Below are positions 4,848 through 25,131 of a stretch of 26,459 bases of DNA, piece by piece. A model generated the notes under the pieces. That model did not search any database and was not told the origin of the DNA. It saw nothing but the letters and a program-made list of their open reading frames with translations. The DNA comes from a virus. Both the position numbers and the translations under genes were made by a program. Positions within the stretch are counted from its first letter, which is position 1, and each line of letters starts with the position of its first letter. The stretch covers positions 1-26,459 of IMG/VR virus record IMGVR_UViG_3300046455_000637. One strand, written 5' to 3'.

Positions 4848-4987
4848 GCACGTTCGACGACCCGAACCGCGAAGCCGTCGGGCTGCCGCCGATTTGGACG
4901 GGGGCCGACGCGGAACCGAAGTCCCGCACGGTCGAAGCAGAACCGGAAGAGCCCGCACCGCCACCCAAGAGCCGCAGCACGAAGTAA
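4844..4987 (+). CDS. Small acidic/proline-rich ORF after the capsid gene
   Basis: A 47-residue ORF starting MSTFDDPNRE and ending PKSRSTK. It is rich in Pro, Glu and Ala and probably disordered. Its ATG sits inside the capsid stop (ATGA) and its TAA overlaps the next ATG (TAATG at 4985-4989), so it fits exactly into the coupled head-gene chain. Short ORFs of this kind are common between capsid and connector genes in actinophages, but no function can be assigned. Confidence 0.65.
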   Translation: MSTFDDPNREAVGLPPIWTGADAEPKSRTVEAEPEEPAPPPKSRSTK

Positions 4988-16578: not shown

Positions 16579-16661
16579 CCGACACCCAGAGCTGGTGGCT
16601 CATCGTCGAGGTCGGTGTCATCGCCCTCGCCGCGCTGGTCACGCTGATCAAGTCGCTGTGA
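16575..16661 (+). CDS. 28-residue single-helix membrane peptide
   Basis: Starts at GTG 16575 within the preceding stop. It encodes a Thr/Asp/Gln start followed by one hydrophobic helix (WWLIVEVGVIALAALVTLI) and ends KSL. Its stop overlaps the amidase GTG start at 16658, so it is the first member of the lysis cassette by position. Could be a small holin partner or regulator; nothing diagnostic is present. Confidence 0.5.
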   Translation: MTDTQSWWLIVEVGVIALAALVTLIKSL

Positions 16662-17353
16662 TCATCCCCCGCACCGCCTGGCAAACGACGACCAACCCGA
16701 TCGCCGGAACCCCGGCCGTGCCACACGAATGGCGCTACAACACCCTCCACTACTGCGGTGTCGACGTGAACACCTCCGACCCCGTCCGGCTGTTACGCAA
16801 CATGCAGACAGCGTGGACAAACCAGAAGGGCTACAGCCTCGGCTACAACTTCGCCGTCTTCACCGACGGCTCGAGCTACGAGATCCGCGGCCTCGACCTC
16901 CGCTGCGCCGCCAACGGCGACCAGACATCCAACCGGCCCGGAGTTGCCATCCTGTTGGCGATCCCCGCCATCGACGGCCAACCCACCGACCCGATGATCG
17001 AAGCCGTACGCGACCTCGTCGCCCACACTCGCGCACGGGTACCACAAAGTTTGCTGATCAACGGACACCGCGAAGTCAGACCTTCCCCGACCGCCTGCCC
17101 CGGCCAGACGATCATGCACATGATCGAAGCCGGCGTCTTCGAACCCACCACCGAACCTCTCGAGGAGGCCGGCATGATCTTCCGCACCACCGCCACCGCC
17201 GACGCCATCTTCGCTCAGGGAAGCGACATGAGCGTCAGACACGTCACCGCCCAAGAGGGAGCCGTCGCGCAAGCCGGGAACCCCGGCTGGGCCGACGGCG
17301 CGCCGACGCTCGAGCTGCCGGCCGACGTCACCGACTGGCTCGCCACCCTCTGA
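16658..17353 (+). CDS. N-acetylmuramoyl-L-alanine amidase endolysin
   Basis: A 231-residue endolysin of the amidase_2/PGRP fold that cuts the bond between MurNAc and L-Ala in peptidoglycan. Zinc ligands can be placed at His31 (NTLHYCGV), His137 (INGHREV) and Cys147 (TACPG), with Tyr63 in the usual YNFAVFTDG segment. The catalytic domain covers about residues 1-155; the remaining 75 residues, ending DVTDWLATL, form a tail with no recognised cell-wall-binding motif. There is no signal peptide, so release should depend on a holin. GTG 16658 is chosen because it overlaps the preceding stop and the protein opens directly with IIPRTAW, as in this family. Confidence 0.9.
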   Translation: MIIPRTAWQTTTNPIAGTPAVPHEWRYNTLHYCGVDVNTSDPVRLLRNMQTAWTNQKGYSLGYNFAVFTDGSSYEIRGLDLRCAANGDQTSNRPGVAILLAIPAIDGQPTDPMIEAVRDLVAHTRARVPQSLLINGHREVRPSPTACPGQTIMHMIEAGVFEPTTEPLEEAGMIFRTTATADAIFAQGSDMSVRHVTAQEGAVAQAGNPGWADGAPTLELPADVTDWLATL

Positions 17354-17994: not shown

Positions 17995-18021
17995 GAAAAC
18001 CCGCGGAAAACCCGCGGCTCG
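17995..18021. repeat. CCCGCGGAAAA array, left copy (27-bp direct repeat)
   Basis: Two CCCGCGG cores joined by AAAA and followed by CTCG. The whole 27-base block 17995-18021 recurs exactly at 18250-18276, so the pair brackets the attP segment. Each core contains the palindrome CCGCGG. A plausible protein-binding array for recombination or integrase control; no direct evidence of function. Confidence 0.85.
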
Positions 18022-18085
18022 ACCCCCTCAGTATCCACCAGAATCCCTAAAGCCCTGCTAGAAGGCACCAAGCAGTTTAGCCTCC

Positions 18086-18216
18086 TGACCTGGGGAGATA
18101 CATAGCGTTTCCCCAGGTCAGAGCCTCATTCCTGCCTGTGGACAACCTCCCTTACAAGGAAGGGGTCGGGGGTTCGAGTCCCTCAGCGCCCACCACAAAA
18201 CCCCAGGTCAGAGCCT
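18086..18216. repeat. Candidate integrase arm-type sites (CCCCAGGTCA x3)
   Basis: CCCCAGGTCAGAGCCT occurs at 18111-18126 and again at 18201-18216. Its first ten bases occur inverted at 18086-18095. The two long direct copies lie on either side of the tRNA-like core, as arm sites P and P' flank the core of lambda-type attP sites. Integrase binding is inferred from position and repetition. Confidence 0.7.
18146..18195 (+). other. attP: attP core: 3' half of tRNA-Val(UAC)
   Basis: The segment reads as the 3' half of a tRNA. The anticodon loop is CTTACAA (18151-18157, anticodon TAC), then the stem side GGAAG, a variable region, the T arm GGGGG-TTCGAGT-CCCTC (18168-18184), the acceptor strand AGCGCCC (18185-18191) and ACCA (18192-18195). 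The matching 5' half (acceptor GGGCGCT and D arm) is absent, so this is not a tRNA gene but a phage copy that would restore the host gene on integration. The integrase gene ends 83 bases away. Exact crossover limits need the host sequence. Confidence 0.85.
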
Positions 18217-18243
18217 GTTTGTCTCCGGATGACAAACTGGCAT

Positions 18244-18276
18244 CCCGCGGAAAACCCGCGGAAAACCCGCGGCTCG
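18244..18276. repeat. CCCGCGGAAAA array, right copy (three units)
   Basis: Three CCCGCGG cores at 11-base spacing, separated by AAAA, end two bases before the integrase stop. The last 27 bases duplicate 17995-18021 exactly. The 11-base spacing puts successive sites on about the same face of the helix, typical of cooperative protein binding. It could also affect transcript ends of the integrase gene. Confidence 0.85.
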
Positions 18277-18278
18277 CA

Positions 18279-19418
18279 TCACTTCGCAGGCTTTCGCACA
18301 CCGATCGGGACCACCGGTGCACGCTTCACGCGCTGCGTTTGTGCTGCCTCGACGATGGCGTCGAGGCCTTGCGCCAGCGCGGCGTCACGGGACTGGATCG
18401 TGTGCTGATACTTCGCCGCCGCCCGCGTCGACGAATGACCGATGCGCGCCATGATGTCGCGAGGTGTGGCACCGGTCGCCGCCGCCATCGTCCCCGCCGC
18501 GTGACGCAGATCGTGCAAGTGCAACTCGGGTCGGCCGATGGCGTCGCGTGCCGGTGCCCAGGCCTGGTTGATCGCCTTCGGTCGCAGCGGCGCGCCTCGC
18601 ACACCGACGAACACCGCAGCATCCGGCGCCGCCGGAGTGAACCGCTCGAGGTGCTCGGCGAGCGCGTCGCACACGATCGCCGGCAGCGTCACCGTCCGGT
18701 AGCCGGCCCGCGTCTTCGGGTCCTTCACCACACGACGACCGCTACCCACGAACACATGCGACGACTCGATCACCACCAGGCCGTGGATGAGATCGACATG
18801 GCGGCGCCGCAACCCGATCAACTCACCGCGTCGCAACCCACCCAGACCGGTCAACAGAACAAAGGCACGGAACCGGACATCGATCACCTCGGCCAGCTCG
18901 AGCACCTCGCCCGGAGAAACATACGGCCGTTCCGGTGAACGATCATCGCCGGCGCCGTGCACGCGGCACGGGTTCTTGGCGATGATCCCGTCTTCGATCG
19001 CCTGGTTCAACACACGGCGCAGCACCCGGTAGGTGGACGCCGCCACCGACCATGACCGCCGCTCGACCAACTCGCCGTGCCACATGCGGATGTCTTCGGG
19101 ACGTAGCTTGCCTAACGGGCGCCGCCCGAGCACCGGTGCGATGTGGAGCCGCCACGCGTCGTCGTAGCGGGCCTGGGTGGTGTCGGCGAGACGGGCATGG
19201 TTCGACGTCCACCACGACGCCCAGTAGTTGCTCAGCGTGCGCCGGCCTTGTGCCGGGTCGATGGCGATGCCGAGCACCGCCGACGCTTCTTCGGTGGCGG
19301 CGTGAGCGCGTGCGTCGGCGAGACGGACGAACCTACGGCTGCGTTCCTTCCCGTCGATCCGCCAGCGCACCTCGTAACGCGCCCCGCTCGCGGTCTGCAG
19401 TTTCTCGATGTGGGCCAC
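18279..19418 (-). CDS. int: Tyrosine recombinase integrase
   Basis: This 379-residue enzyme joins attP to attB through a covalent phosphotyrosine. The N-terminal 55 residues look like an arm-binding domain (EVRWRIDGKERSRRF), then a SAM-like core-binding domain (WASWW...RPEDIRMWHGEL), then the catalytic domain. Catalytic residues can be placed at Arg196 (GLRRGEL), Lys235 (PKTRAGYR), His302 and Arg305 (LHDLRHAAG), His328 (IGHSS) and Tyr337 (AKYQHT); all are present, so it should be active. The start is GTG at 19418, with 4 bases separating it from the upstream HTH gene. It is oriented towards attP. The tRNA-Val site agrees with the preference of this family for tRNA genes. Confidence 0.96.
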   Translation of the reverse strand: MAHIEKLQTASGARYEVRWRIDGKERSRRFVRLADARAHAATEEASAVLGIAIDPAQGRRTLSNYWASWWTSNHARLADTTQARYDDAWRLHIAPVLGRRPLGKLRPEDIRMWHGELVERRSWSVAASTYRVLRRVLNQAIEDGIIAKNPCRVHGAGDDRSPERPYVSPGEVLELAEVIDVRFRAFVLLTGLGGLRRGELIGLRRRHVDLIHGLVVIESSHVFVGSGRRVVKDPKTRAGYRTVTLPAIVCDALAEHLERFTPAAPDAAVFVGVRGAPLRPKAINQAWAPARDAIGRPELHLHDLRHAAGTMAAATGATPRDIMARIGHSSTRAAAKYQHTIQSRDAALAQGLDAIVEAAQTQRVKRAPVVPIGVRKPAK

Positions 19419-19422
19419 GATC

Positions 19423-19713
19423 TCAGTGCCCTTTCCGGTGGCCGAACCGGCGCTGGGCTTCCTGACGCGAATTCAGGCCGACGGTGTCGGCGATCTCCTG
19501 CCAGGTGACCTTGCATTCCCGTGCCCGATCGACGGCGGCCTGCACCGTGTCCTGGCTCTTGGCCTTCGCCTGTTCCTGTTTCCTGAGGGCGCGATTCAGC
19601 GCGACGAGCGCGTTCCAGCGGTCGCGATCGACGTCGAGGGGTGGCCGACCCCGGGGCATGGGGTCATCGTTGGGGCTGTCATCGGGTTCAGTCCAAACCG
19701 TCATTTCTCTCAT
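19423..19713 (-). CDS. HTH protein upstream of integrase (regulator candidate)
   Basis: A 96-residue minus-strand protein. The N-terminus is Asp/Pro-rich, the middle is a charged helix (ALRKQEQAKAKSQDTVQAAV) and the C-terminus reads TWQEIADTVGLNSRQEAQRRFG, a clear helix-turn-helix. It lies 4 bases upstream of the integrase in the same direction, so the two are probably co-transcribed from a promoter in 19714-19770. It may control integration or lysogeny. No C-terminal peptidase domain of a LexA-type repressor is present. Starts are ATG 19713 or the ATG three codons later. DNA binding is well supported; the exact role is inferred. Confidence 0.75.
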   Translation of the reverse strand: MREMTVWTEPDDSPNDDPMPRGRPPLDVDRDRWNALVALNRALRKQEQAKAKSQDTVQAAVDRARECKVTWQEIADTVGLNSRQEAQRRFGHRKGH

Positions 19714-19947: not shown

Positions 19948-20148
19948 ATGGACGACGAGTTCTGCGACTTCCTGAAGTCCGACGAAACCGCTCAGTACCT
20001 GCGGCGATCGATCTGGACGCTGTACGACTGGCGTAAACGCGGTGTCGGTCCCCGACCAGAAAAGGTTGGTGGCGCCCTCCTCTATCGGAAGAGGGTGGTG
20101 GACCGCTGGATCGACGACGGCGGCCGGCTCGAGCCGTGGGACTCATGA
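19948..20148 (+). CDS. Excisionase-like HTH protein
   Basis: A 66-residue winged-helix-type protein of the MerR/HTH_17 class. It has SDETAQYLRRSIWTLYDWRK as the helix-turn-helix, then RGVGPRPEKVGGALLYRKRVVDRWI as wing and final helix, the standard layout of excisionases and related DNA-bending proteins. A strong AGAGGTGAT precedes ATG 19948. First gene of the rightward early operon and divergent from the integrase operon, so either excisionase (directionality factor for the attP site 1.7 kb away) or a Cro-like early regulator. It ends in an ATGA overlap with the nuclease gene. Confidence 0.75.
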   Translation: MDDEFCDFLKSDETAQYLRRSIWTLYDWRKRGVGPRPEKVGGALLYRKRVVDRWIDDGGRLEPWDS

Positions 20149-23505: not shown

Positions 23506-23951
23506 CCAGAACCGACTGCCGCCAACTCCTCATCCGCCGCCGCGAACTCACCGGCGAAACCTTCAACGACGGCACCATCGACGCCTGGACCGACACCTTC
23601 CCCGAACTCGCCCTCGACGTCGCCCTCACCACCATGGGACGCGCCGCCCGCGACCGCGACCGAGTCACCGTCCACGCCTTCACCGAAGCACTCCCACCCC
23701 GACCACCCGCATCCACCGAACCCCCACCCGACCCCGACTTCACCCCCGTCCCCGCCGACCGTGTCCGACAGCTCCTCGCCGAAGGCATCGAGCAAGGACG
23801 CGCCCACCGACTCGCTCGAGCGGTACTCGGCGACCCGGCCGTTCTCGCCCGGCTCGACTGGTGGCGTGCCGGTGGTGAAGGCCACTACCCCGGCTGCAAC
23901 TGCAAACGCTGCCGCGACACGGCGCTGTTCATGCGGGAGGACCGCTCATGA
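23502..23951 (+). CDS. Putative helicase loader-like replication protein
   Basis: A 149-residue protein. The N-terminal 65 residues (LLIRRRELTGETFNDGTIDAW, FPELALDVALTTMGRAARDRD, VTVHAFTEAL) have the helical layout of small phage helicase-loader domains, in which a conserved Trp and a run of helices end in a PT/VT-x-x-x-F segment. A Pro-rich linker (residues about 66-85) leads to a C-terminal helix and CNCKRCRD, a possible metal site. Adjacency to the initiator-like gene supports a replication role. Family assignment is moderate; it has ATGA overlaps on both sides. Confidence 0.6.
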   Translation: MTRTDCRQLLIRRRELTGETFNDGTIDAWTDTFPELALDVALTTMGRAARDRDRVTVHAFTEALPPRPPASTEPPPDPDFTPVPADRVRQLLAEGIEQGRAHRLARAVLGDPAVLARLDWWRAGGEGHYPGCNCKRCRDTALFMREDRS

Positions 23952-24412
23952 AAGCCGTCCTCGCCGCCGTCGCCGTCGCCGTCCTGCTCTACCCGCGTGC
24001 CGCCGTCGCCGACATCGCCGGACCGATACCTATGGACGCGACAGCGATCATGCCGGCCACACGCCTCGACCCACCCGAACCCGAACCCGTGCTCGAGGCC
24101 CCGCCCGGCTCGAGATGCCCCGAGCTCTACGCTGTCGCCGTCGAGCACTGGCCCGGGGCTGTCCTCCACTGGCCGGTGCTCGACAAGATCTTCTGGCGCG
24201 AATCACGCTGCCACCCGCAGGTCGTCAACCGCTACGGGTGTGTCGGGCTCATGCAGATCTGCCGCATCAACCACGCCCGCCTCGGAGTCACCCGCTCCGA
24301 TTTGCAGGAGGCCGGCACCAACATCGAGATCGGCTACCAGCTCTGCCTCGAGCAGCAGCAGCGTGGCCGCTCGTGCTGGCGGCCGTGGTGGCTGGGCCGG
24401 TGGCGGCCATGA
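23948..24412 (+). CDS. Exported lytic transglycosylase (SLT-like)
   Basis: A 154-residue protein with a clear Sec signal: MKAVLAAVAVAVLLY, then AAVA before Asp at about residue 22, a good signal peptidase I site. After a Pro/Glu-rich spacer comes an SLT-type domain: DKIFWRESRCHPQVVNRYGCVGLMQI, with Glu88 of WRES as probable catalytic acid and GLMQI as the expected second motif, then NIEIGYQLCLEQQQRG. Several Cys residues could form disulfides outside the cytoplasm. Such enzymes cleave the glycan strand of peptidoglycan. It is placed in the early operon, far from the lysis genes, with ATGA overlaps on both sides. Confidence 0.8.
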   Translation: MKAVLAAVAVAVLLYPRAAVADIAGPIPMDATAIMPATRLDPPEPEPVLEAPPGSRCPELYAVAVEHWPGAVLHWPVLDKIFWRESRCHPQVVNRYGCVGLMQICRINHARLGVTRSDLQEAGTNIEIGYQLCLEQQQRGRSCWRPWWLGRWRP

Positions 24413-25131
24413 CCGTGCCCCCCAACGCCGATTTGGGGGCAGCCCTCAGCCTCGGCGCGGGTGTCCAGTCGACGGCCGTGCTGCTGCTCGCCCTCGACGG
24501 CGTGCTGCCACCGTTCGACATGATCGTGTTCGCCGACACGGGTGACGAACCGGCCGCGGTGTACGAGCATCTCGATCGTCTGCGTGCCGTCGCGCCGATC
24601 GTGACCGTGAGCGCCGGGCATCTCGGCGCGACCATCAACGATTCGTTCATGCCGATCCCGCTCTACGACGGGCGCGGCGGGATGGGTCGACGCCAATGCA
24701 CGTACCAGTTCAAGCTCCGACCGATCCGCCGCCAGCTACGAACCATCGGCCGACCCGTCAACCTGTCAGTGTGCATATCGACCGACGAGCACCTACGGGC
24801 CAAAGACTCTGGGCTGCTCTGGTGTCGGAACGTGTTCCCTTTGCTCGATCTCGGCTGGTCACGTGACGACTGCAAGCGTTACCTCAGCGAACGGTGGCCG
24901 TGGCCGGTACCGCGATCGGCGTGCGTGTATTGCCCGCTCAAGGGTGACCGTGAATGGCTCGACCTGCGCGAGAACCATCCCGACGACTGGGCTGCCGCCG
25001 TCGCGTTCGATGAAGCGGCGCGGCCGTTCGGCTACGTCCACCGGTCGGAGCGGCCGCTCGCGACAGCCATCCTGATACCGGAGGACGCGGGGCAACTGAC
25101 GCTTGAGTGCGAAGGGATGTGCGGCGTATGA
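24409..25131 (+). CDS. PP-loop ATPase, PAPS reductase/DndC-like
   Basis: A 240-residue adenine nucleotide alpha-hydrolase fold protein. The PP-loop is SLGAGVQS (residues 14-21), followed by MIVFADTGDEP (39-48). RRQCTYQFKLRPIRR (94-108) and SACVYCPLKGDREW (170-183) give Cys97, Cys172 and Cys175, with Cys234 and Cys238 near the C-terminus as further possible iron-sulfur ligands. This is the arrangement of phosphoadenosine phosphosulfate reductase-like proteins found in many phages and in DNA phosphorothioation (DndC). It probably activates a substrate with ATP and may transfer sulfur to nucleic acid or a metabolite; the substrate is unknown. No other dnd genes are in the window. The start ATG 24409 overlaps the transglycosylase stop. 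Confidence 0.82.
   Translation: MTVPPNADLGAALSLGAGVQSTAVLLLALDGVLPPFDMIVFADTGDEPAAVYEHLDRLRAVAPIVTVSAGHLGATINDSFMPIPLYDGRGGMGRRQCTYQFKLRPIRRQLRTIGRPVNLSVCISTDEHLRAKDSGLLWCRNVFPLLDLGWSRDDCKRYLSERWPWPVPRSACVYCPLKGDREWLDLRENHPDDWAAAVAFDEAARPFGYVHRSERPLATAILIPEDAGQLTLECEGMCGV

Follow-up and report, generated by a model that had tools for sequence, protein, structure and literature searches.

The question raised by this locus is why a half tRNA gene should stand between genes of a phage. The window analysed here, 26,459 bases long, comprises an entire IMG/VR record, which is linear and consists of a single contig; in it the 3' half of a tRNA-Val(UAC) lies, as an initial annotation had stated, between the lysis region and an integrase gene. 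Terminase, portal, protease, capsid and tail genes make up the left part of the record, and the tail genes and an amidase endolysin gene (16595-17353) lie on the left side of the site. To the right follows the gene of a 379-aa tyrosine integrase (18279-19418, minus strand), which has a SAM-like domain and matches Pfam Phage_integrase (9.9e-18) and the PHROG integrase family phrog_1 (3.3e-61). Upstream of int a small HTH protein is encoded on the same strand (19423-19713; phrog_686, 1.1e-4), and a MerR-like HTH_17 protein on the plus strand (19948-20148; Pfam HTH_17, 4.5e-8; phrog_66, excisionase and transcriptional regulator, 9.9e-8) is a candidate excisionase (RDF). After the HTH_17 gene come genes for a VRR nuclease, an exonuclease, RecT, a PAPS reductase and an HNH protein. 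The phosphoadenosine phosphosulfate reductase-like gene (23761-25131, phrog_424) is a candidate auxiliary metabolic gene. Among cultured phages, Mycobacterium phage MooMoo has the nearest capsid (45%). From gene content, integrase cassette and capsid likeness, the source is therefore a temperate tailed phage that carries its integration cassette internally, as is usual for actinophages; its lysogeny we infer. The integrase is at most about 38% identical to phage records among the matches listed, and as a single query against viral contigs it gave no confirmed match. At its left end the contig opens within a coding stretch that continues further in relatives; the record is thus probably incomplete, and reading the contig ends as physical genome ends is unsupported. 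A tRNA-Ser(GCT) called by ARAGORN over the end of a coding frame (4879-4974, minus strand) is treated as probably false, because Rfam gives no match there.

The tRNA-derived sequence constitutes the common core of a putative attP. On the plus strand it runs from the anticodon loop to CCA (18151-18195, CTTACAAGGAAGGGGTCGGGGGTTCGAGTCCCTCAGCGCCCACCA) and comprises the loop CTTACAA (18151-18157) with the TAC anticodon at 18153-18155, the 3' anticodon stem, the variable loop, the T arm GGGGG-TTCGAGT-CCCTC, the acceptor strand AGCGCCC, the discriminator A and CCA. The 5' half is missing, since ARAGORN finds no complete tRNA at the core. The initial annotation had described the half as running from anticodon stem to CCA and placed it at 18146-18195; the block stands, with its start moved to 18151, as the homology shared with partial tRNA-Val copies in other genomes always begins at CTTACAA. 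For the same reason the crossover is placed in the anticodon loop, the likely overlap region of strand exchange. The preceding bases ACCTCC (18145-18150, plus strand), which resemble the 5' anticodon stem of some hosts and match it in part, would represent the left half of the core, an integrase core site. The core is 44-47 nt long and present once in the record. Further 3' halves that lack the 5' half occur at two viral and about a dozen other cellular loci. With CCA included, the exact core is absent from the 84,980 genomes and from the viral collection searched. Matches to the core in phage and plasmid records were, among those listed, mostly whole tRNA genes of unrelated phages, the others lying in bacterial replicons without annotated features.

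Core and flanks together look like a complete lambda-type attP, about 280 bp long, with arms and three inner sites. The left arm-type pair is an exact 11-bp tandem repeat (AAAACCCGCGG twice, P1 and P2; 17996-18017, plus strand) that 0 of 300 shuffles reach, and an exact 27-nt copy of the left arm stretch is found on the right side. There ATCCCGCGG and two further copies of AAAACCCGCGG (P'1-P'3) occupy 18242-18272 (plus strand), such that pairs of AAAACCCGCGG flank the core on both sides (17996-18017 and 18251-18272) as putative arm-type sites. Mycobacteriophages have pairs of 10-11 bp arm-type sites (PMC3203893; PMC3706429), and tandem repeats of this kind fit them. The inner sites are copies of CWGGTCAG, which occurs three times in the 26 kb window, always inside the same 130 bp. 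Two are located on the P side, one inverted (CTGACCTGG, 18085-18093, minus strand) and one direct (CCAGGTCAG, 18113-18121, plus strand); the third (CCAGGTCAG, 18203-18211, plus strand) is on the P' side, 7 nt from the CCA. The CWGGTCAG letters themselves are placed at 18085, 18114 and 18204 in the three copies. An imperfect palindrome, GCCTGTTTGTC-TCCGGAT-GACAAACTGGC (18213-18241, plus strand), which is largely kept, its core included, in the contig L119 described below, separates the P' inner site from the right arms. In a first reading CWGGTCAG was itself taken for the arm-type site; this was dropped, the 11-bp tandem repeats having been found further out at a near-constant distance.

A sister attP is found in a second phage contig, L119 (IMG/VR contig 3300045284_000365), whose integrase is 81% identical. 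The attP regions are 79% identical over 194 nt and share the core (44 nt identical), the arms, with the left repeat pair in the same place, and the P-side inner sites, among them the inverted copy at the corresponding position; the P' inner copy is degenerate in L119 (CCTGCTCAG). The window's terminase has no match in the L119 record, so the integration cassette may have moved between phages with different terminase genes, or the L119 record omits that part.

These features bear on the suspicion that the fragment is no attachment site but the remnant of a tRNA gene carried by the phage, or a stretch that resembles a tRNA by chance. Phages do carry tRNA genes, and Rfam yields no match to the tRNA family at the site or anywhere else in the window. 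The likeness is nonetheless not due to chance, since over 50 nt the core block is 96-98% identical to complete tRNA-Val(TAC) genes (E values within the set of fetched loci, 5e-19 and 6e-18). A remnant, moreover, does not account for a break at the anticodon loop, where the other partial copies all begin too, for the adjoining integrase and the arm repeats on both sides, or for conservation of the attP region in L119. Both the pairing of the arms and the split arrangement in integrated elements contradict it, and we give it practically no weight.

Intact tRNAs of Gly, Val, Ala, Glu, Pro, Phe, Arg and others are followed by homologues of the integrase (28-47%). Behind the tRNA, 17 integrated acidimicrobial elements have tandem repeats with a period of 10-11 bp, their sequence differing from one element to the next, and in most attL sites tested the arm repeats (11-bp period) begin 56-72 nt behind the tRNA. 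When these 17 elements and both sides of the window and of L119 were subjected to a repeat test, 14 of the 21 stretches beat their shuffles (p 0.05 or less). Of 12 tRNA sites located by the motif alone on long contigs of other Acidimicrobiales genomes, 6 show the same tRNA 3' half again at a distance of 6-23 kb, in most cases with an integrase in between. At the far, attR ends of the elements, the P-side motif stands left of the core in 4 of 5 read, and in G422 C4 and C7 it forms an inverted pair. The parts that are contiguous in the window are hence, in integrated acidimicrobial elements, split between attL and attR, 6-23 kb apart.

That the same parts are split between both ends of integrated elements is direct evidence that the window represents the joined, non-integrated form. 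We conclude, with a probability of about 94%, that the region of about 18000-18272 is the attP of a temperate siphophage whose host is an Acidimicrobiales bacterium, and that it was caught in this joined state. An integrated prophage has host DNA beside attL and attR; here phage genes lie on both sides, and arms, core and integrase are contiguous, which bears out the initial annotation in calling the site an attP and not a prophage end. Its further description of the molecule as a virion or excised form holds insofar as the form is joined and non-integrated, but does not set it apart from a tandem junction: judged by sequence, virion, excised circle and tandem junction would share one attP. 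The tRNA piece might then mark the junction of two tandemly integrated prophages, or of a concatemer, and the molecule be chromosomal after all, the more so as stacked partial copies at tRNA-Val are known in other genomes (e.g., L107). Such an arrangement is improbable, given a core in single copy, 26 kb with one integrase and one structural gene set, and no host gene seen in the record.

With core, arms and integrase in the window, whole matching tRNA genes in hosts and split versions in integrated relatives, the joined attP would work as follows. The phage integrase, on our assignment of protein to sites, would connect the core with the outer tandem arm repeats, and strands would be exchanged between the phage anticodon loop (18151-18157) and its counterpart in the host tRNA-Val(UAC) gene. 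The new 3' half supplied by the phage would rebuild the host tRNA at attL, with the integrase adjoining, and the displaced host 3' half would come to lie at attR, the other prophage end. Excision would be the reverse, probably with help of the HTH_17 protein as the putative direction factor.

The initial annotation had also held that the host attB could be named from sequence, and staked its reading on a tRNA match in some host. A degenerate tRNA pattern gave 94 places in the genome collection, mostly Acidimicrobiia by title; the phage 3' stem GGAAG pairs with CTTCC, and most of the nearest places have CCTCC instead. A search of 395 genomes of the class with an exact 41-nt stretch found it inside a complete tRNA-Val(TAC) gene in genome G170 and, with one mismatch, in G357. 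Over 18145-18194 the two host genes agree with the phage at 49/50 (single mismatch at 18147) and 48/50 positions, respectively. Against the best host gene the tRNA-derived block spans 18148-18194, and the host gene continues with CCG, not CCA. Both genomes belong to one family (six genomes in the collection) of an order that includes Acidiferrimicrobium, i.e. Acidimicrobiales. The attB was thus nameable as foreseen, and the phage host is probably an acidimicrobial bacterium with tRNA-Val(UAC) as target; the match to host genes is not full and the exact species is not reached. Hosts of the L113 type (GGAGG stem) are possible, yet have a mismatch inside the core, and G170 and G357 fit better. 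In this way 50 bases link an anonymous metagenomic phage to a host family, a useful gain given that few papers were found on prophages of Acidimicrobiia.

In both G170 and G357 another integrase gene is located directly behind the tRNA-Val, which is therefore an integration hotspot. The integrases behind this tRNA-Val in two genomes of the candidate host family (L152 and L151) differ from each other. In L107, several partial tRNA-Val 3' halves lie within 8 kb (minus-strand positions 2535 and 5591) together with a whole tRNA, which points to repeated integration at one site. The search for prophages at such genes that had been proposed initially thus returned the host genes and other integrases, but not this phage in integrated form: a search for integrated copies and relatives by capsid protein gave no match in 397 genomes of the order, nor in the six that represent the candidate host family, an empty answer that proves little.

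A less ordinary by-product, and the part worth a second look, is the occurrence of CWGGTCAG beside integrated elements across actinobacteria. The motif sits 6-13 nt behind the 3' ends of tRNAs of many isotypes. Where an integrase lies within 1.5 kb of the tRNA, CWGGTCA was found at this offset in 17 of 36 cases, and where none does in 1 of 62, a comparison that relies on an integrase model built from the homologues and is partly circular, many members of the first group having been chosen by integrase. The motif was therefore also searched alone. A T-loop followed by CWGGTCAG is present in 128 of 248 Acidimicrobiales genomes, and a T-loop followed by the reversed letters in 5. An integrase lies within 1.5 kb at 10 of 30 motif places sampled, with about two thirds lacking one. 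The order is not its limit: in a sample taken across the phylum Actinomycetota, 59 of 198 genomes carry the motif (a count of the forward motif only), and it adjoins the cores of four of six cultured phages read, namely Fred313, ChipMunk, Validus and Finkle. In Fred313, arm-like tandem repeats (TGCAACTC pairs) are located elsewhere than the motif. Partial coverage of the literature, figures excluded, turned up no published description of CWGGTCAG with integrase and tRNA.

The copies of CWGGTCAG could be transcription terminators only and not recombination sites, a reading that concerns the inner sites and not the attP. The P-side pair could form a 15-bp hairpin (z -6.7), and the P' copy lies in a terminator-like hairpin in Fred313, ChipMunk and Finkle; in L119, however, the pairing is reduced to the motif itself, and in the window the P' copy is outside the stable hairpin. 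The large excess of the motif over its reverse behind tRNAs also counts against terminators, because these do not need such a bias, and we regard the reading as unlikely. By analogy, CWGGTCAG between core and arm sites takes the position of the lambda IHF site H'. We know of no protein that binds it. Tentatively, it might be an inner site general to the attachment sites of tyrosine integrases in actinobacteria, H'-like in position and maybe bound by a conserved factor, as it is common to integrases with differing outer arm repeats. A host protein that bends DNA, mIHF for example, may bind it and act with Int, or the motif may be a conserved integrase or excisionase contact. As the host factor of L5 integration mIHF stimulates the reaction, and by itself it has no sequence preference on attP (PMC3724605). 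If a protein site, the motif would bear on this question of stimulation without own sequence preference, and would reveal integrated elements at tRNA genes even where the integrase is missed; if a general inner site, it would offer a simple way to recognise occupied tRNA sites.

The site resembles several known systems. Like the mycobacteriophage cassettes of Omega and cluster J, Boilgate and L5 (PMC3706429, PMC10865867), the window combines a tyrosine integrase with a tRNA attB, a core (43-44 bp in the mycobacteriophages) that spans the tRNA 3' half and on the left ends in the anticodon loop, paired arm sites of 10-11 bp to either side of it and an attP beside int; in Omega the attP is likewise on the 3' side of int. 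Unlike them, it has an acidimicrobial host, tRNA-Val(UAC) as target, CCCGCGG-type arm repeats and the divergent integrase noted above. With the lambda attP (layout after PMC4111918 and general knowledge) it shares P arm, core and P' arm with tandem arm sites on the P' arm, and H' lies between core and arms about where the window has its inner motif. Of the two, only the window has a tRNA-derived core, and actinobacterial mIHF is unrelated in sequence to E. coli IHF (PMC3724605). The tRNA-dependent lysogeny of Fionnbharth also pairs a tyrosine integrase with a tRNA attB, but has a core of about 10 bp and a whole tRNA supplied by the phage (PMC10865867), whereas the window has neither a short core nor a phage tRNA gene of the same isotype, and carries the whole tRNA 3' half in a core of 44-47 nt. 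The site is thus of an ordinary, textbook kind, a tyrosine-integrase attP at a tRNA gene of the temperate actinophage type.
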